A stretch of 34,878 nt of DNA, taken from NCBI GenBank assembly GCA_018818165.1, contig JAHISP010000031.1, positions 1-34,878 of the forward strand. The letters are read 5' to 3'. The notes under the pieces are model-generated. The model was not told where the DNA came from. It ran no database searches and saw nothing but the letters and a program-made list of their open reading frames with translations. Source of the stretch: Bacteroidota bacterium (GTDB lineage Bacteria > Bacteroidota > Ignavibacteria > Ignavibacteriales > Melioribacteraceae). The number at the start of each line of letters is the position of its first letter. The stretch's first letter is position 1. The translations under genes were made by a program, and so were the position numbers. Of the stretch, positions 3,025-33,461 are shown piece after piece.

Positions 3025-3409
3025 ATACAATAATCAGCATTTTAAATAAACCACTGTGGACTGTATTTACACAGTCTTGGTGACGTACAAAATTCGTTTT
3101 GAACGACCAAACGATAAACCACAAAAACCAAATAATATCCAAACTTCAATGTCTAATATCCAAATTTTTTCTTTTTTGCATGATTTATTCAAAAATAATG
3201 AGTTTGAGTTTTGGTTATTCGTTTTTGCTATTTATTTGAAATTTATCTTTTGTCGTTTGCTATTTATTATGACATTTTTATACGCTAAGTCGAGATGCAA
3301 TTAAGTGCATAGTTTTAACCCTAACTTATACCAATAAAATTCTTCAAATTATTGAATGTTTTTAAGTATTTTGTCAATTGCTATTTCACTTATTTATGAG
3401 AATACAAAA
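3025..3409. other. Gene-free spacer with low-complexity, repeat-like sequence
   Basis: No convincing gene. A frame starting with GTG at 3056 runs to 3304, but its translation is dominated by Phe, Ile and Asn and has no start signal. Its DNA has an A/C-rich left half (near 3098-3165) and a T/G-rich right half (near 3200-3270), weakly inverted relative to each other. This pattern is common in intergenic repeats. No terminator hairpin is clear after the RNase H gene. Confidence 0.45.
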
Positions 3410-5507: not shown

Positions 5508-6398
5508 TTATAAATTATTCACATAATCATAAATAATTTTGGAAACTTCGGACATCATTTCTGCAGTTTGAGGCGCACTAGTAATATTTTTAGATAATAT
5601 AACCAGCACATATTTTCTGCCATCTGGAAGAATGACAATTCCAGAATCGTGAAGTACTCCAGTAATTGAACCAGTTTTGTGAGCAACTTTTACTTCGCTA
5701 GGTAATTTTGCTGGAATAATACTATTGTGTTTTTGGTTCAAAAGTATTTCAATCATAATTGAATCAGCTTTTGGATTTACAGCCTTTCCCTCTGCAATTT
5801 TTTCAAATAAAATCATCAAATCATTAGCACTTGTTTCGTTGTTCAAGCCAGCATCAAAAGCTTTCATATCTTCAACTCCGCGCAAAACTTTTATTGTTTT
5901 TGCACCCAGCTCGTCCATGGTTTTCATAACATTTTGGGCACTGAGTTGCTCAATAACAATATTAGTTGCTAGATTACTGCTGTGTATAATCATATCATAA
6001 ACTAGATTATAATAAGTGTCTTTCTTCCCAATCATTTCATAAGCTTTATCGCCAGAATCTCTATTTATATCAAGTGAAAACTCACTTCCATCAACAATGC
6101 TTTTGAAACTATTTTTCACAATTAATGAATCTTGCAAATCAATAATTCCATTAGCATCTTGCTTGAATGCTTCAATCATAACTGGAGTTTTCATTGTGCT
6201 GGCAGCATGAAACATCTCTTTTTCATTTATTAAAATTGAATTATCCTCACTTCCAACCAACTTAAACGCAAGGGCAAAATTTCCTTCAACTTTTCCAAAT
6301 TTTTCGTTAATCTGTTTTTCTACTTCCGTTTTCATATCCACGCTAAAACTCATTAAAATTATTGAAATGAATAAAATGATTGATTTTGTTTTTAACAT
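5508..6398 (-). CDS. Class A beta-lactamase-type serine hydrolase
   Basis: A 296-residue exported protein with an N-terminal hydrophobic signal (residues 4-20). The active-site motifs of class A beta-lactamases occur in the right order: S67-T-M-K70 (S-x-x-K, nucleophile Ser67), S140-S-N142 (place of the S-D-N motif) and K241-T-G-S244. Glu176 in RGVEDMKAF is the best candidate for the deacylating glutamate of the omega loop, but the usual E-x-x-L-N is not literal. It could hydrolyse beta-lactams, or belong to related peptidase/esterase-like members common in Bacteroidota. Antibiotic resistance cannot be claimed from sequence alone. It is monocistronic and convergent with the FG-GAP gene. Confidence 0.82.
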   Translation of the reverse strand: MLKTKSIILFISIILMSFSVDMKTEVEKQINEKFGKVEGNFALAFKLVGSEDNSILINEKEMFHAASTMKTPVMIEAFKQDANGIIDLQDSLIVKNSFKSIVDGSEFSLDINRDSGDKAYEMIGKKDTYYNLVYDMIIHSSNLATNIVIEQLSAQNVMKTMDELGAKTIKVLRGVEDMKAFDAGLNNETSANDLMILFEKIAEGKAVNPKADSIMIEILLNQKHNSIIPAKLPSEVKVAHKTGSITGVLHDSGIVILPDGRKYVLVILSKNITSAPQTAEMMSEVSKIIYDYVNNL

Positions 6399-6447
6399 AT
6401 TTTACCTAATGTTTTTATACAAACTATTAGTTATTAAAAATTTGATT

Positions 6448-6477
6448 CAAAGATATACAATTGAAATCAAAAACAAA
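6448..6477 (-). promoter_or_regulatory. Possible Bacteroidota-type promoter for the beta-lactamase-like gene
   Basis: On the - strand, TATCTTTG (6455-6448) matches the Bacteroidota -7 consensus TAnnTTTG. TTTG (6477-6474) lies 18 bases upstream, slightly closer than the usual spacing to the -33 box. The ATG would follow about 45-50 bases later. In AT-rich DNA such matches also occur by chance. Confidence 0.35.
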
Positions 6478-6529
6478 ATTAACTTTTATCAAATTTGGAT
6501 TAATATTAACTTACGTTACGCAAGAATTA

Positions 6530-6607
6530 AAAACCTTGAAGGTTTTGTTAAGAGGAATCGCAAAGAATTCAATATTTTAATTTTTATTAGCGAAACCTTC
6601 AAGGTTT
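6530..6607. repeat. Pair of AAACCTT/AAGGTTT palindromes
   Basis: AAAACCTT-G-AAGGTTTT (6530-6546) and AAACCTT-C-AAGGTTT (6593-6607) are each near-perfect palindromes and are reverse complements of each other, so they can pair locally or with one another. They lie in the gene-free region 6399-6821 between divergent genes. No other gene or RNA is visible there. Confidence 0.65.
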
Positions 6608-6821
6608 GGGTCATGTGTATGAATAAGGTGAATATTAATTTAAAATATTTTCAAAGATAAAATATTAGATTATTCTTAAAGGTTCGTCTACTGAAATTAA
6701 AATAAAATTATTAAATTGACATTTAATTTTAATACTTTGTTAGTAGTATAATTTTTTTTGAAATTATTAGTAATAGATAAAATTTGAATTAAATCATTTG
6801 TCATAATTTTTTGAGATAAAA

Positions 6822-8534
6822 ATGAAATTCGGACTCTCGCAATACACACTTGATCTTTTCTTTGAAAAAGTATTAGAAAAATATCCAAATAACCCAGCAC
6901 TATCTTTGGTTGGCGAAAAACCATTTACGTTTTCTGAATTTGGGGAAAAAGTATACAAATTACAAGTAACATTAAAAGCATTGGGCATTCGTAAAGGCGA
7001 TAAAATTGTAATTCTTGGAACTTCATCACCAAACTGGGCAATTGCTTTTATGGCAATTATGACAATGGGCGCTGTTGCTGTGCCGGTTCTTGAGGGATTT
7101 CCAGAAACAGATATTGAGCATATAATCCGTCATTCCGATGCAGAAGGTATTTTTATTTCCAATAGTTTACACAGCACTCTAAATATAGAATTGCAGCGCA
7201 TGAAAGTTGTTATTAAACTGGATGACTTTTTGTTATTAGACCCAAATTCAAAAGACAAAAATATTTGGAAAAAGATTATTGAATTTCCTGACAAAGTGAT
7301 TCAAGCTATAGGTAATGAGCTATCTGGCACGCCAAAATATGAAATTGAGGAAGATGATATTGCTGAAATATTGTACACTTCTGGAACTACTGGGCATTCA
7401 AAAGGAGTCGTACTCACGCATAAAAACCTTGTTAGCAATATTTTTGAAGGTCCCGATTTACTAAAAGTTATAACCGAAAAAAGTGTTGTATTATCAATTC
7501 TGCCAATGGCACACGCTTTTGGCTCAACTTCTTCGTTTTTGTCAATTATCTATTGTGGCGCAAGTATTGTTTTTATGGATAAGAAGCCATCTCCAAAAGC
7601 ATTATTAGAAACAATGCAATTAGTAAAACCAACCATTTTTGGCTCTGTTCCGTTAGTATTTGAAAAAATTTATCAAAAAAGAGTGCTTCCAACAATTGCA
7701 CAAAATAGATTATTCAAACTTTTATCCAAAGGTAAAACGACAAAAAGATTGTTAAATAAAATTATTGGGAAAAAGATTAAAAAGCTTTTCGGTGGTAAAT
7801 TGGACTGTGTAATTATTGGTGGGGCAAGTTTTTCACCCGAAGTTGAAACCTTTTTGATTGAAGGTGAAATTCCATATTGTTGTGGATATGGTTTAAGCGA
7901 GTGCGCTCCATTAGTTACTTTTTCATCAATGGAAACTCAAAAAATGGGTTCTCCAGGTCATGCAGTTACGGACGTAGAAATAAAAATTATGGATGCTGAT
8001 TCCAAAAGTGGAATTGGTGAAATTTGCATAAAAGGTCCAAACGTAATGAAAGGCTATTACAAAAACGAAGAAGCAACGAGCAAATCATTTACAAAAGATG
8101 GATGGTTAATTTCTGGCGACAAGGGATATCTTGATAAAGATGGATTTTTATTCATAACCGGGCGATCAAAAAATGTGATAATTGGTCCATCGGGTGAAAA
8201 TATTTATCCAGAAGTAATTGAAGCAAAACTGCTTGAATCATCATTTGTGGAAGAAGTGATAGTTTATAAATCTGATAATCATTTAGTAGCACGTATTTTG
8301 CCCGATTACACATATATCGAAAATCTTAAAAATACAAGCAACGAAAACCGAATTGCTTCAAATGTAGTTGAAATATTGGAAAATGTAAGACGTGAAACGA
8401 ATAAGAATTTACCTTCGTTTTCTCAAATAAATAAAGTTGTGGAGCAGACTTCTCCATTTTTGACAACACCGACAAATAAAATTAAACGTGTAGAATATGT
8501 TCCTGGATATTTGGGAAATAATAGCTCCACATAA
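6822..8534 (+). CDS. AMP-forming long-chain acyl-CoA synthetase-like protein
   Basis: A 570-residue ANL-superfamily enzyme that would activate a carboxylic acid, probably a fatty acid, with ATP to an acyl-adenylate and then to a thioester. The phosphate-binding loop is YTSGTTGHSKG (185-195). GYGLSE (355-360) is the A5-type motif. GWLISGDKGYLDKDGFLFIT (427-446) holds the ribose-binding Asp433, and GRSKNVI follows (447-453). The A8 region reads GPSGENIYPEVIE; a Glu stands where many relatives have Lys or Asn before NIYP. The C-terminal NKIKR offers the usual catalytic lysine. Length fits fatty acyl-CoA ligases and long-chain AMP-binding proteins. It is monocistronic. Chain-length preference cannot be read from sequence. 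Confidence 0.88.
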   Translation: MKFGLSQYTLDLFFEKVLEKYPNNPALSLVGEKPFTFSEFGEKVYKLQVTLKALGIRKGDKIVILGTSSPNWAIAFMAIMTMGAVAVPVLEGFPETDIEHIIRHSDAEGIFISNSLHSTLNIELQRMKVVIKLDDFLLLDPNSKDKNIWKKIIEFPDKVIQAIGNELSGTPKYEIEEDDIAEILYTSGTTGHSKGVVLTHKNLVSNIFEGPDLLKVITEKSVVLSILPMAHAFGSTSSFLSIIYCGASIVFMDKKPSPKALLETMQLVKPTIFGSVPLVFEKIYQKRVLPTIAQNRLFKLLSKGKTTKRLLNKIIGKKIKKLFGGKLDCVIIGGASFSPEVETFLIEGEIPYCCGYGLSECAPLVTFSSMETQKMGSPGHAVTDVEIKIMDADSKSGIGEICIKGPNVMKGYYKNEEATSKSFTKDGWLISGDKGYLDKDGFLFITGRSKNVIIGPSGENIYPEVIEAKLLESSFVEEVIVYKSDNHLVARILPDYTYIENLKNTSNENRIASNVVEILENVRRETNKNLPSFSQINKVVEQTSPFLTTPTNKIKRVEYVPGYLGNNSST

Positions 8535-8546
8535 CTATATAGTTAT
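8531..8546. repeat. 16-bp perfect palindrome over a stop codon
   Basis: ATAACTATATAGTTAT is a perfect palindrome, and its first bases include the TAA stop of the acyl-CoA synthetase gene (8532-8534). It has no T run after it. It could be chance in AT-rich DNA, a weak RNA hairpin, or a binding site. Confidence 0.4.
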
Positions 8547-8734
8547 TGCTAATAGTAGATTAATGATGTATAAAATACTTTGGAATTACTTCGATTTTTA
8601 TTAAGTTAAGAATATCGGAATTGATATGTGGCATCAATAGTACTTATTTGCTATAAACATTTCTGATTAGAGTATTATTGAAAGCATGTAGTATATCAAA
8701 GAAAGGAAAACAATAAATAAGTAAAGGAGATAAA

Positions 8735-11700
8735 ATGAAAAATCGTTGTGATTCTTTCAATCTTTTTTTTACTGTAAAATACATTTCAATTTTCTTTTTT
8801 CTATTAAGCAGTATTCTACAATTAAGTATTACTTCAACTATCTTTGCCCAAAATTCTAAAAGAACAAGACTCTATACCCATCCTCAAAATTTTGATGCCT
8901 ATAATAAAATATACAATGGATGGATTGAAGCTCATGTTGAAGGTCATGTTTTTTACAATGACACATATATTCCAATACCTAATGCAGAAATAAATTTATT
9001 TTACGAAGAGTATTGGGTATTTGAAAGTGAAGAAACAGTTGATCCTTGCTATATGTTTTTAGGTTTACCCTTCCCATTCCAAGGTTGGCTTTTTTCATGT
9101 GATAAGCAAGATCTATCAACTATTTCCAATAATGAAGGTTATTTTGTTTTTGGTAGTGGTTCATCTTCACATGATATTTATCTAAATTATACTGGTGACA
9201 GTTTTACAATCTCAGGAACAGTTACTGATTCAAACCAAGCTCCAATTCCGGAAACTACAATAAATCTTTATACTGGTACGTTTAAAGTAGCGGAAGTATT
9301 CACTGATAGCGATGGCAATTTCCAATTATTAAATATTTTACCTAGTAATTACACTTTAATTCCGGAAAAAGAAAATTATGTTTTTGAACCAGATTCTATT
9401 TTAATAGAGTTAAGTGACAACGATATTTCAGGTATCTCCATTACAGGCAAACCTGTTAAACCATTTCAAGTTTGGATATTGCCTAAAGATCCTTTTGCGC
9501 CTCAGTTTCATAAAACAGGAGTAATTCCAGCTGATAAACTTTTCCCAGCAAAAGTATTTGCAAAAATGGAAAATGAGATTGGAGAGCCCATTAAAGATCA
9601 TCCGATTAAATTTACGCTCCAAAATCCCGAATTAGGAGAATTACGTTTTGAAAATAATGTTGAACAGGAAACAATCACAGTTCCTACAGATGAAAATGGA
9701 ATTGCGGTCGTTTACTATCATTTTACTAGCCAAATAGATAATGCTAAAATTATAGAACAGATTGTTATCAAGGATGAGGAATCCGGCAATCAAACTACCG
9801 TAGATGTTGAGATTGGATTAGGTCTCCACATATATTATCTAGAGCGATATGAAACTGAAGCTGGATTAATAGTTCCAGGAACGCAAATAGGTCTTGTTGT
9901 AAAAATTAAATCATCGGAAATGTTTCAAACCAAAAATTTTGATTTAGAAGCTTATTTGGATAGCATTCAAAGTGCTGGAATATGGGATAATCCTTTTGGT
10001 GTGGATCTAAGCGTTGAGTGGTTAAACAAACCGAAACCAAGTACATATGGAAAATTAGTTAGTCTTTTTTGGACTACAGAAGATGAAGTATATAATGGAT
10101 ATTGCAGATTTGATAATTTGCGCGACCTAAATACAAACTATAATTTTAATATTCTTTATGCGTATGACACACCTAAGATTGAGTATGGAAATTTACATAG
10201 TCTGCCTGCCATAATACCACATTCAAAAGAAAATCATTTATATGAAGTTTCTGCGAGCTTATCTACTCCTAACAATCAAGGTGAATATGTTAGCATTGGT
10301 AATCCATTTATGCAAATTGACGTAGACGGTGTTTCATCCGATATTGAATTATTTTTATGTGCTTTTAGTCCAACAACAAAAACACAATTTATAGTTGCTG
10401 AAATATTCAAAAATTATAATTCATGGGGTGGAGCAACACTGGATTTAATTGATATTTCATGCAAAATATTTCAAGGAGAGTATTTTGAAGCATTGCTAAA
10501 TTTTGCAAAATATAAAGGCGATGCCTATCTCGGTTCACTTAAAGAAAAAGTTGGTGAAAGTGATTTTCTGCAAAACTTATCTGAACAGGAACTTGCTGAA
10601 GTATATAAAGCAATATTATTCAAAGATGCAGCTGACTTCTATAGCTATATTTCCGGTATTCAAGGGTTGGATTCTATTTATAGTATTAATAGAAAACCGA
10701 TGAAAGCGATAACCAACTTGATTCTTCCGGCACCTGACGTGTTCGATATGGAATACCAGAACCTAGCCAATATTAATATAATGGGGATGCTTCAAAATGA
10801 AGAAAACTTAAATTCTAGAATTATTACTGTAGTAAATGCTGATGAAGCTAATCTAAAAAATTCCGATGGTGTACTAGCAAAAGAGATTGACTACGATTTT
10901 GAAAACATTGATGAAATGATGAAAACTACTCTTGATAATATAACTTGTTTTATTTTAAGTGGTGATGATTCCTATACATTAGACCTAAAAACAAATCAAA
11001 ATACTTCCCTATCAACTTGTAAAGCTGGTGATCTAGAATACGATCTAATACTATTAGATACCGATCATTATACAAGTGGAACACTAGAGGTTAGTACTTC
11101 AGAAATTGGAAGTTTTAATGTTGATTACAATAATGACGGTATTATTGATGCTGTTATTGAATCTGATAGAATAGATCCTTTTGATTCTGGTGGCGATGAA
11201 ACAGAAAGCGCAGTCGTAGACTGGGCAATCGTTGGTGGCAGTGAATATGACCATCGCTCATATGGTATAGTCACTGACGTAAATGATAACATTTATCAAA
11301 CTGGTTCTTTTAAGAAAACATTTAGCATGTTAAACCAAAAAGTCGAAACTAATAATCAAAGATTTTACTTAGCAAAAATCAATAAAGAGCATCAACTTGA
11401 ATGGCTGGTTGATGGTGGAGCAAATGATGGCTCAAGCAGCCCAACAGATATTGTGATTTCTAAAGATGGTAATCCGATTTTAGCTGGTTATTTTGAAGGA
11501 GAAAGTACTTTTGGTGATGTCACCTTAACATCAAATGGAGGCTCAGATCCTGTTATAGTGAAATATAAAAGTGATGGAAATGTTAGTTGGGCTATGAATT
11601 ATGGTGGGGAGAAGACAGAATTTTTAAATGGTGCTGCACTTGATTATAATGAAAATATAATTATAACAGGATATTTTTATAACAATTCTCAATTTGGTAC

Positions 11701-12817
11701 TATAAACCTTGAGGCAAATGGTCATGAAGATATATTTATAGCTAAGTTGGATCAGGGCGGCGAAGTTCTTTGGGCAAATTCTGCTGGTGGAGAAGATTTT
11801 GAAGAAGGGAAAAAGGTTGCAGTTGATTCGCACAATGATATTTATGTGTGTGGTAGTTTTGCTAAGCTGGTCAAATTTGAAAACTATGAAATAAATTCAA
11901 ATGGAATAAGCGATATTTTTCTTGCTAAATACAGTGAGTCTGGAGTTCTTTTGTGGGTTAAATCATTCGGAGGATTAGAAAATGAAGAAGTTAATGATAT
12001 TGTAATCGATAAGGATAATAGTACTTATATTACAGGAAAAATTTACAGTACTGATTTTTCATTTGAAGAAATTGAAATCTCTAAAAATGACAAAGGTAGT
12101 TTTTTTATAGCAAAATTTAATGAGGACGGTGAATGTTTATGGGTCAAAAATTCTGATGATAAAAGAGGCAGTAGTGGACTTTGCTTATTCGCAGATGCAT
12201 ATTCGAACTGTTATGTCGGCGGAGTATATGATGATGGATTTACTTTTGAAAATATTACTCATGAATCTAGATTTGAGGATGACATTTTTATTATGAAACT
12301 TACTAAAGATGGCGATCTTATTTATTTTAAGGAATACTCTGGTCTAGCATTTAAACAAATATCCGGTATTGCAAAAAATAGTAAGCAAAAAATATTCACT
12401 ACTGGATATTTCGAGGCCTCATTAACACTTGATGGAATTACAATTTCAAGTGAGAATAATAAAGATATTTTTATTACCTCTATGAATGAAGTAATAACTA
12501 ATATTAGAGATGTTAAAACAAATGGGAAAAAAGTGAACTCATACTATTTGAGTCAGAATTACCCAAACCCTTTTAACCCAAGCACCATAATTCAATATGA
12601 ATTATCAGAACAAAGTAAAATCAAAATTGAGATATTTAACATGTTAGGCCAATGTGTTGACATACTAGTTGATGCAAAAAAATCATCTGGTAATTATGAA
12701 ACTACATGGAAAGCTGAAAATTTACCAAGTGGAGTGTATTTAATAAAACTAAATGCTGAAGGATTAAGTTCAAATAAACAATTTACAATGGTTAAAAAGG
12801 CTCTTTTATTGAAATAG
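8735..12817 (+). CDS. Large secreted multidomain protein with T9SS type A sorting domain
   Basis: A 1360-residue exported protein. The start has an excellent AAAGGAG site 6 bases upstream, followed by a basic N-terminus and a hydrophobic signal (about 17-37). Visible parts: a carboxypeptidase-regulatory-like Ig domain around 157-234 (ISGTVTDSNQAPIPETTINL); a Big_1-like Ig region around 269-330; a long middle with no family I recognise; a DYNNDGIIDAVIE calcium-type loop near 795. From about 828 to 1250 there are repeated units of the SBBP beta-propeller type, with D-x-N-x-x-Y-x-x-G-x-F and D-I-F-I-A-K strands. A T9SS C-terminal domain lies around 1267-1360 ([14 protein letters not shown], then SGVYLIKL). 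No catalytic residues are evident. It is probably a surface adhesin or structural protein; that is inference. Confidence 0.87.
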   Translation: MKNRCDSFNLFFTVKYISIFFFLLSSILQLSITSTIFAQNSKRTRLYTHPQNFDAYNKIYNGWIEAHVEGHVFYNDTYIPIPNAEINLFYEEYWVFESEETVDPCYMFLGLPFPFQGWLFSCDKQDLSTISNNEGYFVFGSGSSSHDIYLNYTGDSFTISGTVTDSNQAPIPETTINLYTGTFKVAEVFTDSDGNFQLLNILPSNYTLIPEKENYVFEPDSILIELSDNDISGISITGKPVKPFQVWILPKDPFAPQFHKTGVIPADKLFPAKVFAKMENEIGEPIKDHPIKFTLQNPELGELRFENNVEQETITVPTDENGIAVVYYHFTSQIDNAKIIEQIVIKDEESGNQTTVDVEIGLGLHIYYLERYETEAGLIVPGTQIGLVVKIKSSEMFQTKNFDLEAYLDSIQSAGIWDNPFGVDLSVEWLNKPKPSTYGKLVSLFWTTEDEVYNGYCRFDNLRDLNTNYNFNILYAYDTPKIEYGNLHSLPAIIPHSKENHLYEVSASLSTPNNQGEYVSIGNPFMQIDVDGVSSDIELFLCAFSPTTKTQFIVAEIFKNYNSWGGATLDLIDISCKIFQGEYFEALLNFAKYKGDAYLGSLKEKVGESDFLQNLSEQELAEVYKAILFKDAADFYSYISGIQGLDSIYSINRKPMKAITNLILPAPDVFDMEYQNLANINIMGMLQNEENLNSRIITVVNADEANLKNSDGVLAKEIDYDFENIDEMMKTTLDNITCFILSGDDSYTLDLKTNQNTSLSTCKAGDLEYDLILLDTDHYTSGTLEVSTSEIGSFNVDYNNDGIIDAVIESDRIDPFDSGGDETESAVVDWAIVGGSEYDHRSYGIVTDVNDNIYQTGSFKKTFSMLNQKVETNNQRFYLAKINKEHQLEWLVDGGANDGSSSPTDIVISKDGNPILAGYFEGESTFGDVTLTSNGGSDPVIVKYKSDGNVSWAMNYGGEKTEFLNGAALDYNENIIITGYFYNNSQFGTINLEANGHEDIFIAKLDQGGEVLWANSAGGEDFEEGKKVAVDSHNDIYVCGSFAKLVKFENYEINSNGISDIFLAKYSESGVLLWVKSFGGLENEEVNDIVIDKDNSTYITGKIYSTDFSFEEIEISKNDKGSFFIAKFNEDGECLWVKNSDDKRGSSGLCLFADAYSNCYVGGVYDDGFTFENITHESRFEDDIFIMKLTKDGDLIYFKEYSGLAFKQISGIAKNSKQKIFTTGYFEASLTLDGITISSENNKDIFITSMNEVITNIRDVKTNGKKVNSYYLSQNYPNPFNPSTIIQYELSEQSKIKIEIFNMLGQCVDILVDAKKSSGNYETTWKAENLPSGVYLIKLNAEGLSSNKQFTMVKKALLLK

Positions 12818-12943
12818 CAATAAAAATATATTGTTTTGGGAGATATGAAGTAGCAAAAACGGAAAGAATATTCTAAGCTAGTGAAATAGAAGTTCTCAAC
12901 TTATAATGTAAAATTTCCATCAATCTCTCTTCATAAATAATGT

Positions 12944-13185
12944 CTTATTGAGAATTTATATAACTTCTTATACAACCTACAAGAAGTTTCACCATCTAAA
13001 AACCAGTTTACTATTCCATTAAGCGGTTTTACCAATGATACTGGACATTTTTCAGCTACTTTGGATTTACTTATTATTTCATGCTGTATTTTTGTCAACA
13101 GCTACAATAGATACTACTTTGGCGTTGTTTAACCATTAACCCAATTTCATAGTTAAACCTCTATTAAACAATAACTTATTGAGAA
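12944..13185. repeat. Segment bounded by 11-bp direct repeats
   Basis: CTTATTGAGAA occurs at 12944-12954 and again at 13175-13185 in the same orientation. The 242-bp segment between them contains the pgl relic. Eleven bases of AT-rich sequence could match by chance, but the position around an out-of-place gene fragment is suggestive. Confidence 0.4.
12971..13131 (-). pseudogene. Decayed 3' fragment of a 6-phosphogluconolactonase gene
   Basis: On the - strand this segment translates to a decayed copy of the C-terminus of the pgl gene at 20497-21222. The stretch beginning EIISKSKVAEKCPVSLV and ending NGIVNWFLDGETSCRL matches 25 of 36 residues of the intact protein's last 36. Upstream, NNAKVVSIVAVDKNTA matches the region around residue 186 onward. 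About 11 bases are then deleted, which breaks the frame with a TGA, and the original TAA stop has become TAT. Nothing resembling the N-terminal two thirds is present. It is a dead fragment, probably from an old duplication, rearrangement or acquired relative. Confidence 0.85.
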
Positions 13186-13196
13186 AGTAAAAAATT

Positions 13197-13276
13197 CCTC
13201 GATTACATCTCTACGAGTAGTAATCGAGGTAACTTAGGCAAGAGCTTTTATTCATTAGATTTTTCTAATGAATAAA
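13197..13276. repeat. Two consecutive hairpins in the spacer
   Basis: CCTCGATTAC (13197-13206) pairs perfectly with GTAATCGAGG (13220-13229). A 13-bp perfect stem follows: 13247-13259 with 13264-13276, around a TTTT loop. They lie just downstream of the - strand ABC operon end (13349) and could act as its transcription end or protect the 3' end of its mRNA. Neither is followed by a T run on the - strand. The rest of the gene-free stretch 12818-13348 shows only the pgl fragment. Confidence 0.6.
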
Positions 13277-13348
13277 CTAGGTAAAAATAAAATTAAAGTA
13301 TTTTGTGAGAGGTACGGAATCACACAATAATATTTATTAAAAACTACC

Positions 13349-17878: not shown

Positions 17879-18179
17879 TTACTTTTAACTTTTACACTTT
17901 GATAAATATATCTTTTTAATTATTTTAATTTTCAAGAAATGCAAAGTGTAGATGTTGTGAGGAAGGTTTGATGGGATTTGAATAGGAAATGTATTTCTTG
18001 AAATATTTTAGATTGTTAGAATGAATAATTATTTTTTTAGTAAACTATTTAATTAAATAACTTATGATGATATTGATTGAACATAGTGGTCTCTTATTAA
18101 GATTTGTTTTTCTTGATAACACGCCAAAATGCACTATTTTCAATCGGGTCAATACAGGGTTATACAACTTGAGGTGTTA

Positions 18180-20354
18180 ATGAGAAGAGGCAATTATCTT
18201 ATACTATTTTTATGGTTCCATTTATTTACAACTCTAATTGCACAATGGGAATGGAATAATCCAACACCTAATTCAAATCCATACAAAGAGGTTGAATTAC
18301 TTGATAAATTTTCGTTTTTAATTTTAGATGAGTTAGGGAATTTAATATTAACAAATGACAACGGAATTTCCTTTAAGGAAATAACAAATTTCCCCAACGA
18401 AATTACTCCATTCCAAATGCATTTTTTTTCTAAAAATTCTGGCTGGTTTTTAGGATCAGGTGCCAGCGAAGATTTTATAATTTATACTGATGATGCTTGT
18501 GAGACTTACGAAATACAGTTTGCCGGTGATTTTTCATCACTATATTTTCTAGATGAAAATATTGGATGGGTAACCTCTCCAGACTCGATATATTCTACCA
18601 TAGATGGGGGTCTTAACTGGCAAACGACGGGTGCAATCCCTTCGGACTTCCAAAAAATCCATTTTGTAAATGATGAAATTGGATATGCAATAAAATATTA
18701 TTTGATTTATAAAACAACAGATGGAGGCCTCAATTGGAATATTATATACAGTAAAACTGGATATCGGTATAACTCATTATTTTTCATTAATGAAGATGTT
18801 GGATATTTTGTTGGCTCAAAAACTACTGGCTCACAAAGTAGTATAGTATTAAAAACAGTTGATGGAGGGCAAAATTGGATATCCCAGATTCTTGATGATT
18901 ACATAGAAATTTATTCATTAAAGTTTATTTCAGAACAAGTTGGGTTTATTAATGGTATTGGATGGGATGAAGGCAAAATGAACATTGGTGTATCAGGGAC
19001 TTACGACGGTGGCATAAATTGGACTCGCTTAAAATCCATAAGTTATACTCCTGGATTCGTAAATAAAAAAGGTGATATAGATGTTTACGAAAACAATAAA
19101 ATTATATCAGTTTTTAGCAGTAATTCTTCGATAGTTGGTTCTGAAGATTCCGGTGATACTTGGGATATAATTTCAGATGATTTGTTGGCTGATTCTACCG
19201 CAACAAATTATAAGATATACGATATTTGTTTCCCCTCTGAAAATATTGGGTACTTATTAACCGAAAAAGGATTATATAAATCATTTGATTCTGGATTAAA
19301 TTGGGAATTAATAAAAACATTTAATCCATATGAAACTTTAACCCGTTTGTCTTATCTAAACAATTTAACTATTTGGATTGGTGGATCTGATGGCAGAGTG
19401 TATAAAAGTTCAGATGGAGGGGAAAGTTGGGAAATTGTAGACTGTGGAATCGGGGAAGATATCAAGGCAATCCAAGTAATATCAAACAATAATATTGTTA
19501 TAGCTGCATCAGAATGGATTGAAGATTTTTCAATTGGTGGATTCTATTCTACGCACACTGCCAAATCGGTTGACGCTGGATTAAATTGGCAAACCGTAAA
19601 TTTTGATGATGATTGTGCAATATATGATCTTTATTTTCTCTCAGAAAATAAAGGATGGGCTGTTGGAAACAACGTTTTTTTTACTGATAATGGTGGGGAA
19701 ACGTGGGCCAAAATAAGTCAAATAAATGATAAATTTTTAACTGTGAAATTTATATCCGATTCAGTTGGTTTTTCAGTTGCATATATTAATGATGGTATTT
19801 ATAAAACTACTGATGGGGGATATAATTGGGAAAGTATATTTTCAGGCTATATTAATGACATTGATTTTTTTGATTCTAATAATGGTGCTGCAGTTGGTCG
19901 CAATGGACTTTACTTAAAAACAAGCGACGGTGGAAACACTTGGAGCTATGAAAATATAAATACTTATACTGATTTTAGCAATTTGTATTTCGACAGCAAT
20001 AATATTTGGTTAATTGGAGATATGCATACAATATTGAAACAAAAATTTAATATTACCAGTATTGATAAGTACAATAAATTAATTTCTATACACAAATTCA
20101 AACTAAGTCAAAACTACCCGAATCCTTTTAATCCAACGACACAGATTAGTTACCAATTGCCAGAGGGTGGGTTTGTGAATTTAACGGTTTATAATTTAAT
20201 AGGGCAAAAGGTGGCTGTACTAGTGAACCAAGAACAAAAAGTTGGTAGTTACGAAATAGAACTTGATGCAACAAATTATTCAAGTGGAATTTACTTTTAT
20301 CGAATACAACGTGGTGACTTTTCGGAAACAAAAAAAATGATGTTGCTAAAATAG
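18180..20354 (+). CDS. Secreted YCF48/BNR-repeat protein with T9SS type A sorting domain
   Basis: An exported 724-residue protein. The start at 18180 is preferred because GAGGT lies just upstream and the next residues, [20 protein letters not shown], form a signal peptide ending near AQ. An ATG at 18129 adds residues that do not fit. The body has repeated YCF48/BNR-type beta-propeller blades with the S/T-x-D-G-G-x-x-W pattern: [51 protein letters not shown] and [10 protein letters not shown]. Each is followed by a strand of the type F-x-x-x-x-x-G-Y/W. The last 85 or so residues are a T9SS sorting domain ([14 protein letters not shown], then SSGIYFYRI and KKMMLLK). It is probably surface-exposed, with unknown ligand. 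It is monocistronic. Confidence 0.88.
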
Positions 20355-26466: not shown

Positions 26467-28689
26467 CTATTTACTTGTTAAATGTGAAACTCCATCCCAA
26501 TTAGATTCAGGGGGATTTAAAATATAATTTTCGGAACGTTCTAAATAAATCTTTGAAAGCAAATCGTTTGGATTTGTAAGTAATGATTTTTGAAAATATA
26601 TTTTTGCCGATTCAAAATTTCTACTTTTATATTGCTTATATCCATCGATATAATTTTGAAATAAATTTAATTTTTCTAGTGCTTCTTTATCATTTTTTAG
26701 ACCAAGTAACTCGTATACAATAATAGGTTTTGTCTTACCTTTTACGACTATTTTATCAATTGTTCTAACAACAACTTCCTCTGCAACTTTTTGGTAAATG
26801 GCTTCACTTATCATAATGGAAGTACCATAAAGTTTATTTGCACTTTCCAATCTGGAAGCAAGATTAACACCATCCCCCATAACGGTATAATCAAATCGCT
26901 CAATTCCGCCAATATTTCCAACAACTACATCGTCACCATTTATCCCAATTCTAGTTTTAACTTTTGTAGTAACTTCACTAGAAAAACCATTTTTCAATTC
27001 ATCCATTTTCTTTTGCATTAAAATTGCTGTAATACAAGCATTTAGTTCTTTATCTTCAACGTCAAGTGGAGCACCCCAAAAAGCCATAAGTGAATCGCCA
27101 AGATATTTATCCAAGGTACCTTTATGCTCCAATACAATCGAAGTCATAATTGAAAGATAATTATTGATGAACTCAACCAATTCTTCTGGTTTCATTTTTT
27201 CAGAAATAGAAGTAAACCCTTCAATATCACTAAACATAATTGTAATATTTTTTTTAACTCCACCAAGTGATAGTTTTTCTGGATTGTTTAGCAACTCTGT
27301 TACAAGAGATTTACTTACATATTTCCCAAACATGCCTTTAATCATAGCATTATGTTTTCTTACACTAATTACATTATATGCGGTTGTGGAAAAATATCCA
27401 AAAATAATTGTAGCAATAGGACTGATAAACGATACTATATAATCATGTTCAACAAACAGATAAATGCCCAAAAAGTAAAATCCCACAAATAAGAAAGTAA
27501 GAAAAGTAATGTTAATTAACTCTGCTAAAATTATGTTTAATTTTTTATTTTGCTTAAATAATGAGAAAATAAAGAACGAAAAGAAGGACAGAATAATAAT
27601 TGAGAGAATTTCAATAATTTTTGATTCTTTGATTAAAAAATCATTCCAAATCACATTTTGAATGGCGTTGGCGTGGATTTCAACGCCCCAAATCTGGTTA
27701 TCACCTTTTCTTTTTCCTTGACCAAAAGCTGTTGGATGAAAGTCCTTATCTTCGGGCATGGTAGAACCGATAAGAACAATTTTATTTTTAAACTTTCCAG
27801 ACTGTAGTAATCCTGAAAATTCGTCATCCCATATATTTATATCTGTATCGTAATAAATTTCATCTTTCGTTTTGAAATCCTTGTCATCCAATACATCTGA
27901 AAATTTTAGATATTCGAATGTTCCATTAGGGCCGTAATAGTTTATCAACATTGAAGATTTATCATAACGTGGAATTTCTATATTTAACAATTTAAAATAC
28001 GAATTAGAAATACTAACAATATTGTTTCCTTTTAAACCATAATATTTATTTAAGATTGCAAAACTAAATGTTGGCAAAATAGATTCATTTGCACCAGAAA
28101 TAACAAGGGGTTCGTATCGTCGATAAATTCCATCTTCATCGCTGCCAATTTGTACTATTCCAACCGAACTATCTACAGCAAAAAACTTATTTCTATAGTT
28201 ATAAGACTGCTTTTTAATTGAATAATTCCCAATTTCATATTGCATTTCTGCTTCAACATCCAATTGACCAGCAACAACAACATTTCTTGAATTTAGAATT
28301 GCTTCCTCAAAAAGCTTATCATTTTGGGGAGAGAATTTATCATCATTAGACATTAAAACATCAATTCCAACAGCTTTAACACCAGCATTTTTTAGGTTAT
28401 TAACTACTTTTGCAAAATAGGAACGAGGCCAAGGCCAAGAATTGTATGGTTCTGGAATTTGATCAAAATCATCTTGAGTAATTCCAAGTATTATAACATC
28501 TGCCGAGTCTTTTATATCCTTAACATCTTTTTTTGAAAAACGAATATCAAGATATTTTAATTCCAATTCCTGAATAGGTTTTATTGAAAAGAAAATATCT
28601 TGTGTAAGGAGAATAACTATTAAAGCCGTACCGAGTGGAATAATTACACTTGGTAAAATTTTTTTTATTTTTCTTTTATATCTGTTCAT
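26467..28689 (-). CDS. CHASE2-domain class III adenylate cyclase
   Basis: A 740-residue membrane enzyme. An N-terminal helix (about 11-33) leads to a periplasmic CHASE2 sensor (about 38-355; FSKKD, GVKAVGIDVLMS, KIVLIGST and WGVEIHANAIQN are typical). Three TM helices follow (about 361-378, 388-410, 414-436), then a class III cyclase catalytic domain (about 478-645). The metal-binding Asp pair is D488 (FSDIEGFTS) and D532 (LGDSLMAFWG). Lys528 and Asp606 (MGDGVNLASR) match the ATP-selecting pair, and Asn609 and Arg613 match transition-state residues, so it should be an active adenylate cyclase. The tail is a TPR-like helix pair ending with WDG and TSK. It is separated from the beta-barrel gene by 4 bases. 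The CHASE2 ligand is unknown. Confidence 0.92.
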   Translation of the reverse strand: MNRYKRKIKKILPSVIIPLGTALIVILLTQDIFFSIKPIQELELKYLDIRFSKKDVKDIKDSADVIILGITQDDFDQIPEPYNSWPWPRSYFAKVVNNLKNAGVKAVGIDVLMSNDDKFSPQNDKLFEEAILNSRNVVVAGQLDVEAEMQYEIGNYSIKKQSYNYRNKFFAVDSSVGIVQIGSDEDGIYRRYEPLVISGANESILPTFSFAILNKYYGLKGNNIVSISNSYFKLLNIEIPRYDKSSMLINYYGPNGTFEYLKFSDVLDDKDFKTKDEIYYDTDINIWDDEFSGLLQSGKFKNKIVLIGSTMPEDKDFHPTAFGQGKRKGDNQIWGVEIHANAIQNVIWNDFLIKESKIIEILSIIILSFFSFFIFSLFKQNKKLNIILAELINITFLTFLFVGFYFLGIYLFVEHDYIVSFISPIATIIFGYFSTTAYNVISVRKHNAMIKGMFGKYVSKSLVTELLNNPEKLSLGGVKKNITIMFSDIEGFTSISEKMKPEELVEFINNYLSIMTSIVLEHKGTLDKYLGDSLMAFWGAPLDVEDKELNACITAILMQKKMDELKNGFSSEVTTKVKTRIGINGDDVVVGNIGGIERFDYTVMGDGVNLASRLESANKLYGTSIMISEAIYQKVAEEVVVRTIDKIVVKGKTKPIIVYELLGLKNDKEALEKLNLFQNYIDGYKQYKSRNFESAKIYFQKSLLTNPNDLLSKIYLERSENYILNPPESNWDGVSHLTSK

Positions 28690-28693
28690 TTAA

Positions 28694-31099
28694 TTAAAAA
28701 TTGTATCGAACAGTAACCCCAGAAATTGTGTTTGCCCCACTATCTTTCATGTTATAGTATCTCATTTGCGCTCTAAGCCACAAATTGCGAATTACTTGAT
28801 AAGCAGCCGTTAAGTCTAGAGCATGGCGGCTAAAATCGCCAAAACTTGGACTATAATTCATCGCTAATTCCAAATTATCTTCAAGCATTTTGTATCTTCC
28901 ACCAGCCGCAATTGTAATATATTTATATTTTCGAGAAGAAATATCACTGTTATAATATATGACACTAAAATTACTAACAAATTGTCTTGTCCAAAAGCTA
29001 TTAAGATTAAATGAAGTGGAAAAATATTTTGCATCATTTTTATAAAAACCTTCATCAACTCTGTTTGAAGTCATAAAACTTAAAGAGGAACTATGCCGAA
29101 CTTTGTAATTAAAATCATATCCCAGATTTAGAGAAAATCTATCTGTAATGTCGTTAATAATCGATGTTTGGTTTGCAGAATCAGTCGGACTAATATCATT
29201 ATTGTTTTTATTTCTAATATAACTTAAAGTAATATTTGGCATATTTTGCCTCATATAAAGCGAAACAGAAGTACGCACAGTCTGAAATGTTGTCGTGGCA
29301 ACTTTTGTTTTTTGTAGATTATCATTAAGATTTTCGTATCCAAGAGTAAAAAACAATTGATTATCAAGGGTTCTGAATCTATCTGATATATTTAATCCAG
29401 CAACGTCAGTTCTAGTATATTCCTGACCAAATGATGAAAATTGATTTCCTCTATAAATATATAAGCCTTTCAAATTATTATTAAAATAATTTAATTCAAG
29501 TGAGCCTTCAGCAGCTAGTGATGAAAGTTCTGTGAAATTAAGAGGCTCAATAAATTGATTTACAGTAAAAAATGGTGAAATTCGATTTTTAATATTCTTA
29601 AAGTTTTCAATATCATTTCCTAGTTCATCCCCAACATTAAATATTGAATCAATTTCCGAATCACTATATGTTCCATAAGTTATATCCGAGTTCATAACAG
29701 AAAGAGCACCAACTCCTTTAAGAATAATCCTTTGATCATCAAGCGCCAAACGCATATCAGTACTTGCAACAAGATTTTCTTCTGGTTTGCTTCCAAATTC
29801 AACTGATTTCACATCATCTTTGGAATGCAAAAATGACACTCCAAATTCAAAACCATTTTTAGAACCTAATCCAAGTCTAGCAGATAGAAGATTTCGTGAA
29901 TGATTTCCAAAATCAACCATACCAAATGGTGCCCCATATTTTGCTGAATCGATACGAACTACATTTGATTTAAGTGGAGCGTTATCCTCAGAATAAAGTG
30001 AATCCAAAGTACCCTCAATTTCTCTTCGTACTTCTCCATAAGTACCATGTATATGTATTATACCATAATCAATCTTTCCATCAACACCTCTTACTCTCTT
30101 TCCGTTTAACAAAAGATTGTTATATCTTGGGTAACTATCACCAGCACGGAGATTTAACCAATCACTCGAAACAGAAAGTGAATATCTATTTTGGGGTTGA
30201 ACATTTTTATTTTCTTCCGAAGTTAAGTAACCGTAACCTTTAAAATTCCAATCCCCAATTCCAGCATTTAATGTAAGACCAAGATTTTGATAGAAAGTAC
30301 TTTTATCATTAAAAGATTCGTTTCTTATCTCACCAGCGGCATCACCATTAAACCTAATACCACTCCCCAATTCCTTTATTTGTGCTAAATCCAATGCAAC
30401 AAAATCTCTTTTTATTGAATGATAAAGTTCCCCAGCTTTGTTATAAACAAGTACTTCCAAATTTTGGGAACCACTATTAAAAGATTGTTCAAAATTTTGT
30501 GGATAATATAAGAGCAATTCTCCCGCGAAAATGACATTTTGAGTAACATCTTGTCCATTAAAAATTATTTTTGTCTTAGATATATCAACAACATCTGATG
30601 CTTTTACCATTGAGATAGAAATAAACAAATCATTTAAAGAGAGTGTTTCATTACTGCTTGGACTTAAGATTAAAATCTCGCTATCCTTTTCGCTCATTGA
30701 AGAAACTGTTAATATAATTGGTTGTGCAGCATCGGGTACACCTAATGGATAAGTTTCCATAGAAGCATTTTTCATTTCTATCACTAAATAATATGAAAGT
30801 GTTGGCGCAATTACATCTACACCAGCAATTTGATATGTAGCAATATCGCCTTGGATTTCCATTTCCCTCGTTCTAAAATCAGTTTCTTGAAAAGATTTAT
30901 AAACTATTTGTACTCGAGAAATTGAAGCTGAATTAATTAGAGAAGCTGTTACATTAACATTATTTCCATCTTTAATTTCACCAAAAGTTACAGATGAAAC
31001 TGTATTACTGACTTGCCCCATTATAGAAGTTGTGCAACATAGAATTATTGCCAATACAAAAGAAATACTTTTTATGTATTTCCGTTCAATCTTAAGCAT
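28694..31099 (-). CDS. Outer-membrane beta-barrel protein with N-terminal Ig-like domains
   Basis: An 801-residue exported protein with a signal peptide (about 9-29, ending near IMGQ). Two beta-sandwich-like regions (about 30-130 and 140-232) precede a long alternating-hydrophobic part (about 240-801), rich in aromatic girdle residues. It ends in VTVRYNF, and the terminal Phe is the usual signal for the BAM complex. About 16 or more strands can be guessed, so it could form a large barrel. The block LLLNGKRVRGVDGKIDYGII near 330 looks conserved. I recognise no named family. It is third in the operon, after FecR with a 38-base gap, and almost touches the CHASE2 cyclase, which suggests a shared envelope function. 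Confidence 0.78.
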   Translation of the reverse strand: MLKIERKYIKSISFVLAIILCCTTSIMGQVSNTVSSVTFGEIKDGNNVNVTASLINSASISRVQIVYKSFQETDFRTREMEIQGDIATYQIAGVDVIAPTLSYYLVIEMKNASMETYPLGVPDAAQPIILTVSSMSEKDSEILILSPSSNETLSLNDLFISISMVKASDVVDISKTKIIFNGQDVTQNVIFAGELLLYYPQNFEQSFNSGSQNLEVLVYNKAGELYHSIKRDFVALDLAQIKELGSGIRFNGDAAGEIRNESFNDKSTFYQNLGLTLNAGIGDWNFKGYGYLTSEENKNVQPQNRYSLSVSSDWLNLRAGDSYPRYNNLLLNGKRVRGVDGKIDYGIIHIHGTYGEVRREIEGTLDSLYSEDNAPLKSNVVRIDSAKYGAPFGMVDFGNHSRNLLSARLGLGSKNGFEFGVSFLHSKDDVKSVEFGSKPEENLVASTDMRLALDDQRIILKGVGALSVMNSDITYGTYSDSEIDSIFNVGDELGNDIENFKNIKNRISPFFTVNQFIEPLNFTELSSLAAEGSLELNYFNNNLKGLYIYRGNQFSSFGQEYTRTDVAGLNISDRFRTLDNQLFFTLGYENLNDNLQKTKVATTTFQTVRTSVSLYMRQNMPNITLSYIRNKNNNDISPTDSANQTSIINDITDRFSLNLGYDFNYKVRHSSSLSFMTSNRVDEGFYKNDAKYFSTSFNLNSFWTRQFVSNFSVIYYNSDISSRKYKYITIAAGGRYKMLEDNLELAMNYSPSFGDFSRHALDLTAAYQVIRNLWLRAQMRYYNMKDSGANTISGVTVRYNF

Positions 31100-31137
31100 C
31101 TTTCAACCTATTATTATATTGATTAATCCACAAAATT

Positions 31138-31836
31138 TTATTCTTCTTCAGGATAGAACTCTAACTCAATTGTTCCTTCTTCAGTTTCAATTCGTATTTT
31201 TTTTACGCTTGTTTTAGTCGATTTATTGAACTTGTCATTTTCTAATGATGATATTATTCCTTTAGCAATTACACCTTTTTTACTAATATTCAGAGCCGAG
31301 CCTCCATCTACAGTTGCTTTTTCCTTATTACCAATCAATGATTCAACTTCTATTCTTCCATGGTCGCAAACAATTGTAGTAGAACTATCTTTACCAACTT
31401 CTATGTATCCTGCAGTACCTCTAATAGCAGCAACAGCAGTTGGAGTAGTAAATTTAAACTCCTCGGCGTCCTGCTTATTAACATCAAAACCAACTAATCC
31501 TTTTTCAATAAAAGTATTTTTATTTATTTTATTATCCTCTTTCTCTCCATAAATATACATTGTGGAATTTTCTCTAACTCTCAGAAGTCCTGTTCCATCT
31601 GAGAACAAAACTAAGGCTAATGATTTAAATCCCGTTTTTATTTGTTCACCGCTTTTAAGTGGTGCGCCAGTTTTTGCAGCTTCCCAATCCGAAGAATCAA
31701 CTGGTCTGTATGACACATCTTGAACAATCTTTTTAATCAGTGCTATTGGAGTTGTTTCTTTATCGACTTGAATAAACCCAACAGCAACCGAGAATACAAA
31801 TAATAAAAGCACAAAAAATATTTTAGTTTGTTTCAT
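31138..31836 (-). CDS. FecR-domain protein, exported
   Basis: A 232-residue protein with an N-terminal signal or anchor (about 5-21) and a FecR/LysM-like domain. Family features: DWEAAKTGAPLKSGEQIKTG (about 50-69), then SLALVLFSDGTGLLRVRENS, and TPTAVAAIRGTAGYIEVG around 128-145. The latter is the conserved T-P-x-A-x-x-x-R-G-T segment of FecR proteins. The C-terminal part is charged and ends in EFYPEEE. This is not a classic FecR with an iron-uptake sigma factor next to it, because no ECF sigma or TonB receptor gene is here. It lies 14 bases after the secreted protein gene and precedes the barrel gene. It probably acts as a periplasmic envelope component. Confidence 0.85.
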   Translation of the reverse strand: MKQTKIFFVLLLFVFSVAVGFIQVDKETTPIALIKKIVQDVSYRPVDSSDWEAAKTGAPLKSGEQIKTGFKSLALVLFSDGTGLLRVRENSTMYIYGEKEDNKINKNTFIEKGLVGFDVNKQDAEEFKFTTPTAVAAIRGTAGYIEVGKDSSTTIVCDHGRIEVESLIGNKEKATVDGGSALNISKKGVIAKGIISSLENDKFNKSTKTSVKKIRIETEEGTIELEFYPEEE

Positions 31837-31850
31837 TTAATAGCCTCATT

Positions 31851-32948
31851 CTATTTTTCTTCAAAATTTAGGTTAGTCAATAAGTCAGGGTTTTTTCTCA
31901 AATAATCCAATATTTGCTGAAATTCTTGATACGTTATTCTTCTACCGTCACCCATTGTAATTGTCAAATCATTAAAATTAATTTCTCCATTCCCTATTTT
32001 ATCTAGCAAATTTTCTAGTCTCTCTAATAACTCTTGGCCTTCACCATTTTCTGTAGACTGAGTCTTAAGACCATCTGCAACTTGTTTAATGATATTAGTA
32101 AATCCTTCTTCAGTCCCTTTATCAAAAGATTCTTTTACTGAACCTTTAATTCTAAAATTTACAATCTCTGACTCAATATAAGTCTCACCTCCAGGTGCTT
32201 GAATTGTACCCTTTACTTGAACAACTATTTCTTCTCCACCAACTAATTCTCTATCTAAAATATCTCGAAGATTTATATCTGTAACAATACCAACATTTTT
32301 ATCGTTAACAATTGGATCTCCTTTCTTCAAAGCTTCTTCTAAAGATTCTTTCTTACTTGTGCGAATATTTGCTCTAACTATATAATCTGAAACTCCATCA
32401 ATCCCAGTCCAACTCATAAGAATTCCACCAAGGTCAAGTTCATCGCCAATATTTGGTTGAAGAATAAAAATAGTTTGTGAAGGATTTGTGAACTCCAGAT
32501 CTTTAGTATCTGTACCTTGAAAAACCATATTTGAGTCAAATACTTCAATTATAACTCTATAGGTTCCTGTTGGTTCACCCTTATCTCTGTTTTCTTGAAT
32601 TAAATCATCATTATAATTAGATTCTTCTATATCAGGATAATTATCGTTATAAAAACTACGCGAAGGGAAAGGTTTGGTAGTAAAATTTAATATTTCATTA
32701 AATGAGCTTTCATTCAATTTCCTCCAAAGAAATACTCCTTTAACAATAACTTTTTCATCCTGTGGTGTTAAAACCACTTGTAAAATTCTTGGAGTATTTT
32801 TTAAAGCTGTATTTGAAAGAAATGCGGCAAACGAAGCCTTTGCCAATTGGTCAAATACATTCAAACTAACAGTAACCTGTTGTGCAGATATATTTAGACT
32901 TGAGAAAAGTAGACCTAGAATCATTAAGCTTAATAATTTATTTTTCAT
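31851..32948 (-). CDS. Exported protein of unknown function, operon first gene
   Basis: A 365-residue protein with a signal peptide (MKNKLLSLMILGLLFSSLNI, cleavage near SAQ). It does not match a family I know. The N-terminal half (25-150) is mixed beta with a WRKLNESSF segment. Around 155-255 there is an Ig/fibronectin-III-like module: ILQPNIGDELDLGGILMSW, then DYIVRANIRTS and FRIKG. The C-terminal 80 residues are polar and helical with a GEGQELLERLENLLDKIGNG coil-like stretch. No lipobox or membrane anchor is visible. It is the first gene of the four-gene envelope operon; a TATGTTTG at 33056-33049 (-) resembles a -7 box but lacks a -33 box. Confidence 0.72.
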   Translation of the reverse strand: MKNKLLSLMILGLLFSSLNISAQQVTVSLNVFDQLAKASFAAFLSNTALKNTPRILQVVLTPQDEKVIVKGVFLWRKLNESSFNEILNFTTKPFPSRSFYNDNYPDIEESNYNDDLIQENRDKGEPTGTYRVIIEVFDSNMVFQGTDTKDLEFTNPSQTIFILQPNIGDELDLGGILMSWTGIDGVSDYIVRANIRTSKKESLEEALKKGDPIVNDKNVGIVTDINLRDILDRELVGGEEIVVQVKGTIQAPGGETYIESEIVNFRIKGSVKESFDKGTEEGFTNIIKQVADGLKTQSTENGEGQELLERLENLLDKIGNGEINFNDLTITMGDGRRITYQEFQQILDYLRKNPDLLTNLNFEEK

Positions 32949-33396: not shown

Positions 33397-33437
33397 AAAA
33401 AAACCCACAATTCATTTCTAATTTAACAAATTGTGGG
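33397..33437 (-). terminator. Intrinsic terminator after the TPR gene
   Basis: On the - strand, ACCCACAATTT is followed by a short loop and AATTGTGGGT, then TTTTTTT. The stem and T run are close to ideal. It lies 24 bases past the TPR gene stop and only about 20 bases before the DUF3467 start, so it may also attenuate entry into that gene. Confidence 0.85.
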
Positions 33438-33461
33438 TGAATTAAACAATCATTTTAAATT

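Follow-up and report, generated by a model that had tools for sequence, protein, structure and literature searches.

A four-gene envelope operon of Bacteroidota ending in a CHASE2 adenylate cyclase, probably encoding a trans-envelope receptor

The window analysed here is the whole stretch of 34,878 nucleotides of contig JAHISP010000031.1, from a bacterium of the Melioribacteraceae (Bacteroidota), and the system in question is a set of four open reading frames (ORFs) on its minus strand. These encode, in order, an exported Ig-like protein, a FecR-domain protein, an outer-membrane barrel and a CHASE2 adenylate cyclase (Table 1). An original prediction, made from the sequence alone, had placed the four genes on the same strand with gaps of 14, 38 and 4 bases, and the ORF coordinates confirm these intergenic distances. 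Each of the three upstream proteins (Ig-like, FecR and barrel) possesses one N-terminal hydrophobic segment. Promoter-like sites are not commoner in the region than expected by chance (37, versus 41.8 in shuffled sequences, standard deviation 6.9), and one weak match (9/12) on the minus strand, at 31880-31853, stands just before the FecR gene as a possible internal promoter. The terminator-like hairpin found upstream of the DUF3467 gene is possibly the upstream boundary of the transcription unit.

Table 1. Location of the operon genes and associated features; positions are those of the window, except in the last row, where loci are named
Feature	Position	Strand	Details
Exported Ig/FN3-like protein, first operon gene	31851..32948	minus	365 amino acids (aa); ORF, without Pfam family
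Periplasmic FecR-domain protein	31138..31836	minus	232 aa; Pfam FecR
Outer-membrane beta-barrel	28694..31099	minus	801 aa; signal peptide, beta-sandwich domains ~30-240, barrel ~245-801
CHASE2 class III adenylate cyclase	26467..28689	minus	740 aa; Pfam
Terminator-like hairpin upstream of DUF3467 gene	33403..33438	minus	consensus scan only
Separate barrel branch, 867-915 aa	L265-L267, L270-L272, L274-L276, L278		groups f24/f39/f51

The product of the last gene is identified by its sequence as a CHASE2 class III adenylate cyclase with complete catalytic residues, as had been predicted. Pfam analysis showed CHASE2 (7.1e-50) and Guanylate_cyc (8.7e-26) domains, and homologues in the PDB include CyaB and other cyclases. 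The protein consists of a hydrophobic segment near its N-terminus, CHASE2 at residues 31-369, the cyclase domain at 480-659 and a conserved C-terminal tail, with a hydrophobic cluster at approximately 351-404; these hydrophobic segments are consistent with a CHASE2 domain lying outside the cytoplasm. The catalytic residues, assigned by their roles in class III cyclases as D488, K528, D532, T602, N609 and R613, do not vary in 79/79 operon cyclases. The FecR domain of the 232-aa protein, also named in the original prediction, is supported by Pfam (1.2e-11). The sole hydrophobic segment of this protein, at residues 6-24 of its N-terminus, leaves no room for a cytoplasmic anti-sigma part. To our knowledge, the roles of FecR domains outside iron signalling have been little studied.

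Neither the 365-aa protein nor the barrel has a family match in a Pfam scan. The AlphaFold model of the 365-aa protein (mean predicted local distance difference test (pLDDT) 82.9) shows two beta-sandwich domains and a helical C-terminus. Among its Foldseek matches, all of low template modelling (TM) score (0.15-0.31 on model length), are adhesin, FN3 and Ig-type chains, and with the beta-sandwich model these support the label Ig-like. The Ig-like proteins at the equal operon position in other orders and classes belong to one family (hhalign 99.8% and 99.8% for the groups compared). The predicted model of the 801-aa protein (mean pLDDT 83.6) likewise supports an outer-membrane barrel, with about 24-26 strands (manual count) after residue 245 and the beta-sandwich domains preceding it. 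The top match among solved structures is MtrB (6r2q_B; VIA-align Z 21.3, 452 aligned residues, root mean square deviation 4.2, 13% identity), trailed by the PapC usher (Z 18.1); rows other than MtrB tie with many unrelated barrels, and nothing is inferred from families missing there. The likeness to MtrB of the MtrCAB conduit is one of barrel fold; only 13% of the aligned residues are identical, and a shared fold shows no function. Unlike MtrCAB, the window gave no cytochrome family in the Pfam scan of 21 of its ORFs (the DUF3467 gene plus all 20 ORFs that reach 120 aa). A terminal Phe, predicted for the barrel, is present in the window but does not hold as a general trait, as it occurs in only 33/79 operons; in 41 of the remaining 46 the last residue is I, L, Y, W or M.

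The relatives identified by name belong to Ignavibacteriales and their kin, including Melioribacteraceae, Ignavibacteriaceae and Stygiobacter; a complete copy of the operon is present in Stygiobacter electus (L175). The barrel was matched in 33 of the 58 genomes of the order, its own included (weakly in G011), the Ig-like protein in 31 and the CHASE2 gene in 55. Of the 32 genomes of the order in which the barrel is matched strongly (own included), 29 have all four genes in the sequence Ig-FecR-barrel-cyclase, and in the remaining three (G004, G025 and G050) the contig ends within the operon. A pattern scan yielded 69 named loci, a set that overlaps with these 32 genomes; 54 are complete, ten run off a contig edge, two have interrupted frames and three are rearranged. 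TPR-DUF3467 genes lie upstream of the operon at most loci of group f1 and at no locus of group f3 that was read, and a TPR lipoprotein gene, two genes upstream, is found in the window and at most f1 loci and likewise at no f3 locus read. As the TPR-DUF3467 genes vary between these groups, the four genes are the conserved unit.

Of 395 sampled genomes of the phylum, 118 gave a match to the barrel profile, 94 of them at 1e-20 or better; the 24 weaker matches were excluded from the phylum counts. CHASE2 was found in 137 of the 395 genomes, namely in 93 of the 94 with a strong barrel versus 44 of the 301 others (Fisher p 7e-55, uncorrected for ancestry). The CHASE2 match begins 70-934 bases after the barrel match in 81 of the 94, and with G064 the number of adjacent cases is 82. 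Of forty regions outside the order, 28 are complete and in order, one holds the trio without cyclase, ten hold the barrel alone and one (G092) a distant barrel. These forty-region counts come from a search of all frames, with profiles rebuilt partly from the regions themselves, so that the scores are partly circular; independent support comes from a first pass with order-only profiles and from profile-profile tests. The barrel of L259, which is counted among the 28 complete regions, spans two overlapping frames. As the original prediction requires, the barrel and the Ig-like protein occur together with CHASE2 cyclases, by gene order (29/32 and 28/40) and, for the barrel, by co-occurrence (93/94); barrels without a cyclase in most relatives, which would have spoken against the prediction, were not observed.

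Flanking genes differ between families and orders while the four-gene set persists. Vertical inheritance alone keeps some neighbours together and gene order follows the cyclase tree, as would be expected of chance or inherited co-location without a functional link. This explanation is nevertheless extremely improbable, given that the flanks change between families while the four genes stay, that broken-up operons mostly retain their parts and that a FecR-barrel gene precedes a CHASE2 cyclase in another phylum.

The latter case was reached from the FecR protein of the window, which matched 67 records among 72,556 plasmids (59 of them Sinorhizobium; E values 1e-4 to 9e-3); among the 30 matches listed, one is annotated nsrA (Sinorhizobium meliloti). 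In the S. meliloti record nsrA and the gene after it, cyaK, share one base, and each of the five rhizobial loci read has a CHASE2 cyclase gene after its nsrA-like gene. NsrA (1200 aa) possesses a FecR domain (Pfam 2.3e-15) at residues 66-160, followed by TPR repeats, and its barrel has been placed at about residues 600-1200 (PMC7529298); CyaK is a CHASE2 cyclase by Pfam scan. The FecR protein of the window matches NsrA at 29% over 127 residues (hhalign 97.2%) and its cyclase matches CyaK at 27% over 598 residues. It has been described that NsrA is an outer-membrane receptor whose signals are transduced to cyclic AMP (cAMP) by CyaK and CyaD1/D2 (PMC7529298, PMC13001267), and that purified uL2 acts only with nsrA and cyaK present (PMC7529298). 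The present operon shares with NsrA-CyaK/CyaD1-CyaD2 a similar FecR domain, a barrel in the outer membrane and, as the next gene, a class III cyclase with CHASE2. It differs in that FecR and barrel are separate genes, whereas NsrA carries FecR, TPR and barrel in one polypeptide, and in the addition of the Ig-like protein. The similarity of the FecR domains, the nsrA-cyaK gene order and the requirement of both genes for cAMP thus point to a four-gene version of a kind of pathway that is already known. The system is not classed as a member of the NsrA family, as kinship of the barrels was not found.

Other FecR/CHASE2 arrangements have been described. A Campylobacterota cluster encodes a CHASE2 cyclase, a phosphodiesterase, a FecR outer-membrane protein and a TPR protein (PMC9239204); it is alike in the exported FecR-domain protein adjoining a CHASE2 adenylate cyclase and unlike in its phosphodiesterase and TPR genes, neither of which belongs to the four-gene operon. 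No phosphodiesterase family was found among the 21 window ORFs scanned. In the BiofilmReg operon of Burkholderia, a LysM-FecR protein is followed by a CHASE2 histidine kinase (PMC5192318), so that a periplasmic FecR-domain protein again directly precedes a CHASE2 sensor; its output differs, being a histidine kinase, and neither a barrel nor an Ig-like gene is described there. The FecI-FecR-FecA system shares the periplasmic FecR domain and differs in that the FecR protein here lacks a cytoplasmic part. FecIRA iron signalling was rejected for the operon, in agreement with the original prediction: no sigma factor (including extracytoplasmic function types) occurs among the 21 window ORFs, and the barrel, having no Pfam family, gave no TonB-receptor domain. 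The same prediction had known of no named pathway with exactly this set of genes. In this it overlooked NsrA-CyaK and the Campylobacterota FecR/CHASE2 clusters, although neither has the exact gene set.

The four genes probably encode one trans-envelope receptor that passes an event at the outer surface to a cAMP-making cyclase. The barrel and the Ig-like protein would make up the portion at the outer membrane or surface where the signal arrives. The periplasmic FecR-domain protein would relay the state of the barrel to CHASE2 on the periplasmic side of the inner-membrane cyclase, and the cyclase may then change its output of cAMP, to be read by CRP-type proteins. The system would work like NsrA-CyaK, but with FecR and barrel split, with a barrel that is apparently of another kind, lacking the TPR block and having the Ig-like protein as an additional subunit. 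We infer the contacts between subunits, that of FecR with CHASE2 included, and the cAMP output; the direction of the signal, from surface to cyclase, would follow the precedent of NsrA. It is also in S. meliloti NsrA that the proposal that an outer-membrane event may set cAMP, already part of the original prediction, has an experimental precedent. Six cyclic nucleotide monophosphate (cNMP)-binding proteins over the Pfam cut-off, three of them of CRP size, are encoded in the window's genome, and cAMP is therefore probably readable in the host.

Natural break-ups of the operon were identified. In G058 and G059 the trio occurs without an adjacent cyclase, and an orthologous cyclase lies elsewhere with neither FecR nor barrel beside it; likewise, G301 keeps the trio and has its orthologous cyclase at a separate locus. 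G061 (L176 and L319, on two contigs) has a DNA methylase gene after FecR and, ahead of the barrel, a gene for a protein with a type III restriction endonuclease domain; the Ig-FecR and barrel-cyclase pairs persist and all four genes are retained. A restriction-modification pair may have entered this operon, a single insertion separating its halves. The Ig-FecR pair stands apart from the barrel in seven of the ten f24/f39/f51 genomes. The parts of broken-up operons are thus usually kept at separate loci. A FastTree phylogeny of 97 cyclases, drawn with midpoint root, placed all 60 barrel-operon cyclases in one 70-row group (support 98), together with three split cyclases, three FecR-only ones and L327, L329, L330 and L331, the sole four f24/f39/f51 loci in the tree. 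Outside this group are 17 cyclases with other neighbours, eight from TPR-type loci, among them the second cyclase copy of the window's genome, and two rhizobial CyaK. The FecR-only cyclases come from G311, G362 and G347, which are without a strong barrel match; FecR lies directly upstream of the cyclase in G311 and G362 and approximately 1 kb off in G347, and it exceeds the Pfam cut-off in two of the three.

Such survival of FecR-cyclase sets after barrel loss could suggest that these two alone are a signalling pair, with the barrel and the Ig-like protein sharing the transcript for a separate role, for example in export or uptake. The presence of the barrel at other loci in f24/f39/f51 and the FecR-domain proteins preceding CHASE2 kinases in Burkholderia (PMC5192318) would also fit. 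This is regarded as very unlikely: it is the barrel, not FecR, that immediately adjoins the cyclase in 82 of the 94 genomes, and NsrA, whose barrel part is known from PMC7529298, fuses FecR and barrel.

Alternatively, the three exported proteins could form a surface structure or transport channel, with the CHASE2 cyclase monitoring its internal state of assembly rather than a ligand from outside. The wide barrel fold, with MtrB and the pilus ushers PapC/FimD as best matches, the weak resemblance of the Ig-like protein to adhesin and FN3 domains, and the fact that the barrel can stand apart from the cyclase are all compatible with this. However, NsrA, the nearest studied case, is reported to act as a receptor for an added protein (PMC7529298), and three genomes retain FecR and cyclase although their barrel is not matched strongly, where a monitor of the barrel would be unneeded; assembly monitoring is accordingly considered unlikely.

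Several observations weigh against the four genes acting as one receptor. The co-occurrence counts are uncorrected for shared ancestry, and in G092 a distant barrel relative occurs without CHASE2. In ten genomes (f24/f39/f51) the barrel lies apart from FecR and cyclase, with the other three genes not near; in nine of these ten a small TPR gene and a small HIT-motif (HxHxH) gene precede the barrel, and three of the ten have FecR matches with no Ig-like neighbour detected. The FecR protein matches NsrA with modest significance when searched singly (tblastn, with E values of 1e-4 to 5e-4 in S. meliloti). The barrel shows no detectable kinship to the NsrA barrel (hhalign 0.4%, with only five close NsrA sequences), and the TPR block of NsrA is absent here by Pfam scan of FecR and barrel. 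Finally, coevolution as judged by distance correlation is not robust. Over 79 operons the partial r between the CHASE2 domain and the barrel was 0.37, versus 0.12 between CHASE2 and its own catalytic domain; when an unrelated exported gene served as control, over 31 operons, the relation was reversed (-0.08 versus 0.30), and the signal was lost. Ig-barrel (0.40) and FecR-barrel N-domain (0.26) remained positive in the 31-operon set. The pairing of the control gene with the catalytic domain, however, gave as much as 0.35, and such values therefore mean nothing by themselves. There is no computational support from coevolution for specific contact between the parts.

A broader reading is put forward tentatively. 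The gene set is kept in several classes, its parts survive break-ups and it is reduced in places to FecR and cyclase, which argues for FecR as the partner of CHASE2. FecR proteins may in general be the periplasmic partners that switch CHASE2 enzymes, the operon being an old surface-receptor form, present in several classes, in which an outside molecule would move FecR against CHASE2 by way of a very wide MtrB-like barrel and the Ig-like protein. The factors sensed by CHASE2 were described in 2016 as not known (PMC5192318). If the broader reading is true, CHASE2, a domain with no known ligand, becomes a switch worked by protein binding instead of a sensor of small molecules. The gene set also links families that lack Pfam names to one pathway known from experiment, which makes the question of the CHASE2 partner accessible to genetics in more than one phylum. 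The pathway type is already known; the four-gene form, its spread across classes, the Ig-like subunit, the barrel not detectably akin to that of NsrA and the FecR-only reductions do not appear in the literature searched. The four-gene set is not described in the open-access literature searched, a search outside which most subscription papers lie.

A number of further features were seen in and around the operons. Three large proteins of the window (3356-5380, 8735-12817 and 18129-20354) possess C-terminal sorting domains of type IX secretion. The operon has dxr-like and rseP-like genes immediately upstream in other orders of the class (by sequence at L246 and L247), and genes of similar length, perhaps the same ones, occupy this position in most of L248-L263. 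RseP processes FecR-type proteins in other bacteria. The divergent neighbour of the trio at L193 and L196 (G058 and G059) reads by eye as a GAF histidine kinase, followed at L196 by genes that read, also by eye, as a SpoIIE-type phosphatase and a STAS protein; the kinase-like gene is also found next to the operon of L199, which is complete.

Another operon with a CHASE2 cyclase was identified in the window's genome at L127 (G000:C19:16000-30000, positions 5831-13309), its two other genes encoding proteins of 1513 and 251 aa. The 1513-aa protein, tried as a second barrel and rejected, is a beta-propeller/TPR protein with sub-threshold transglutaminase-like matches. The 251-aa protein was rejected as a FecR protein, Pfam giving TPR and related repeats and no FecR; its relatives in two other families have weak FecR-profile scores (19 and 23 bits). 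Three-gene sets laid out like L127 also occur in other families of the phylum.

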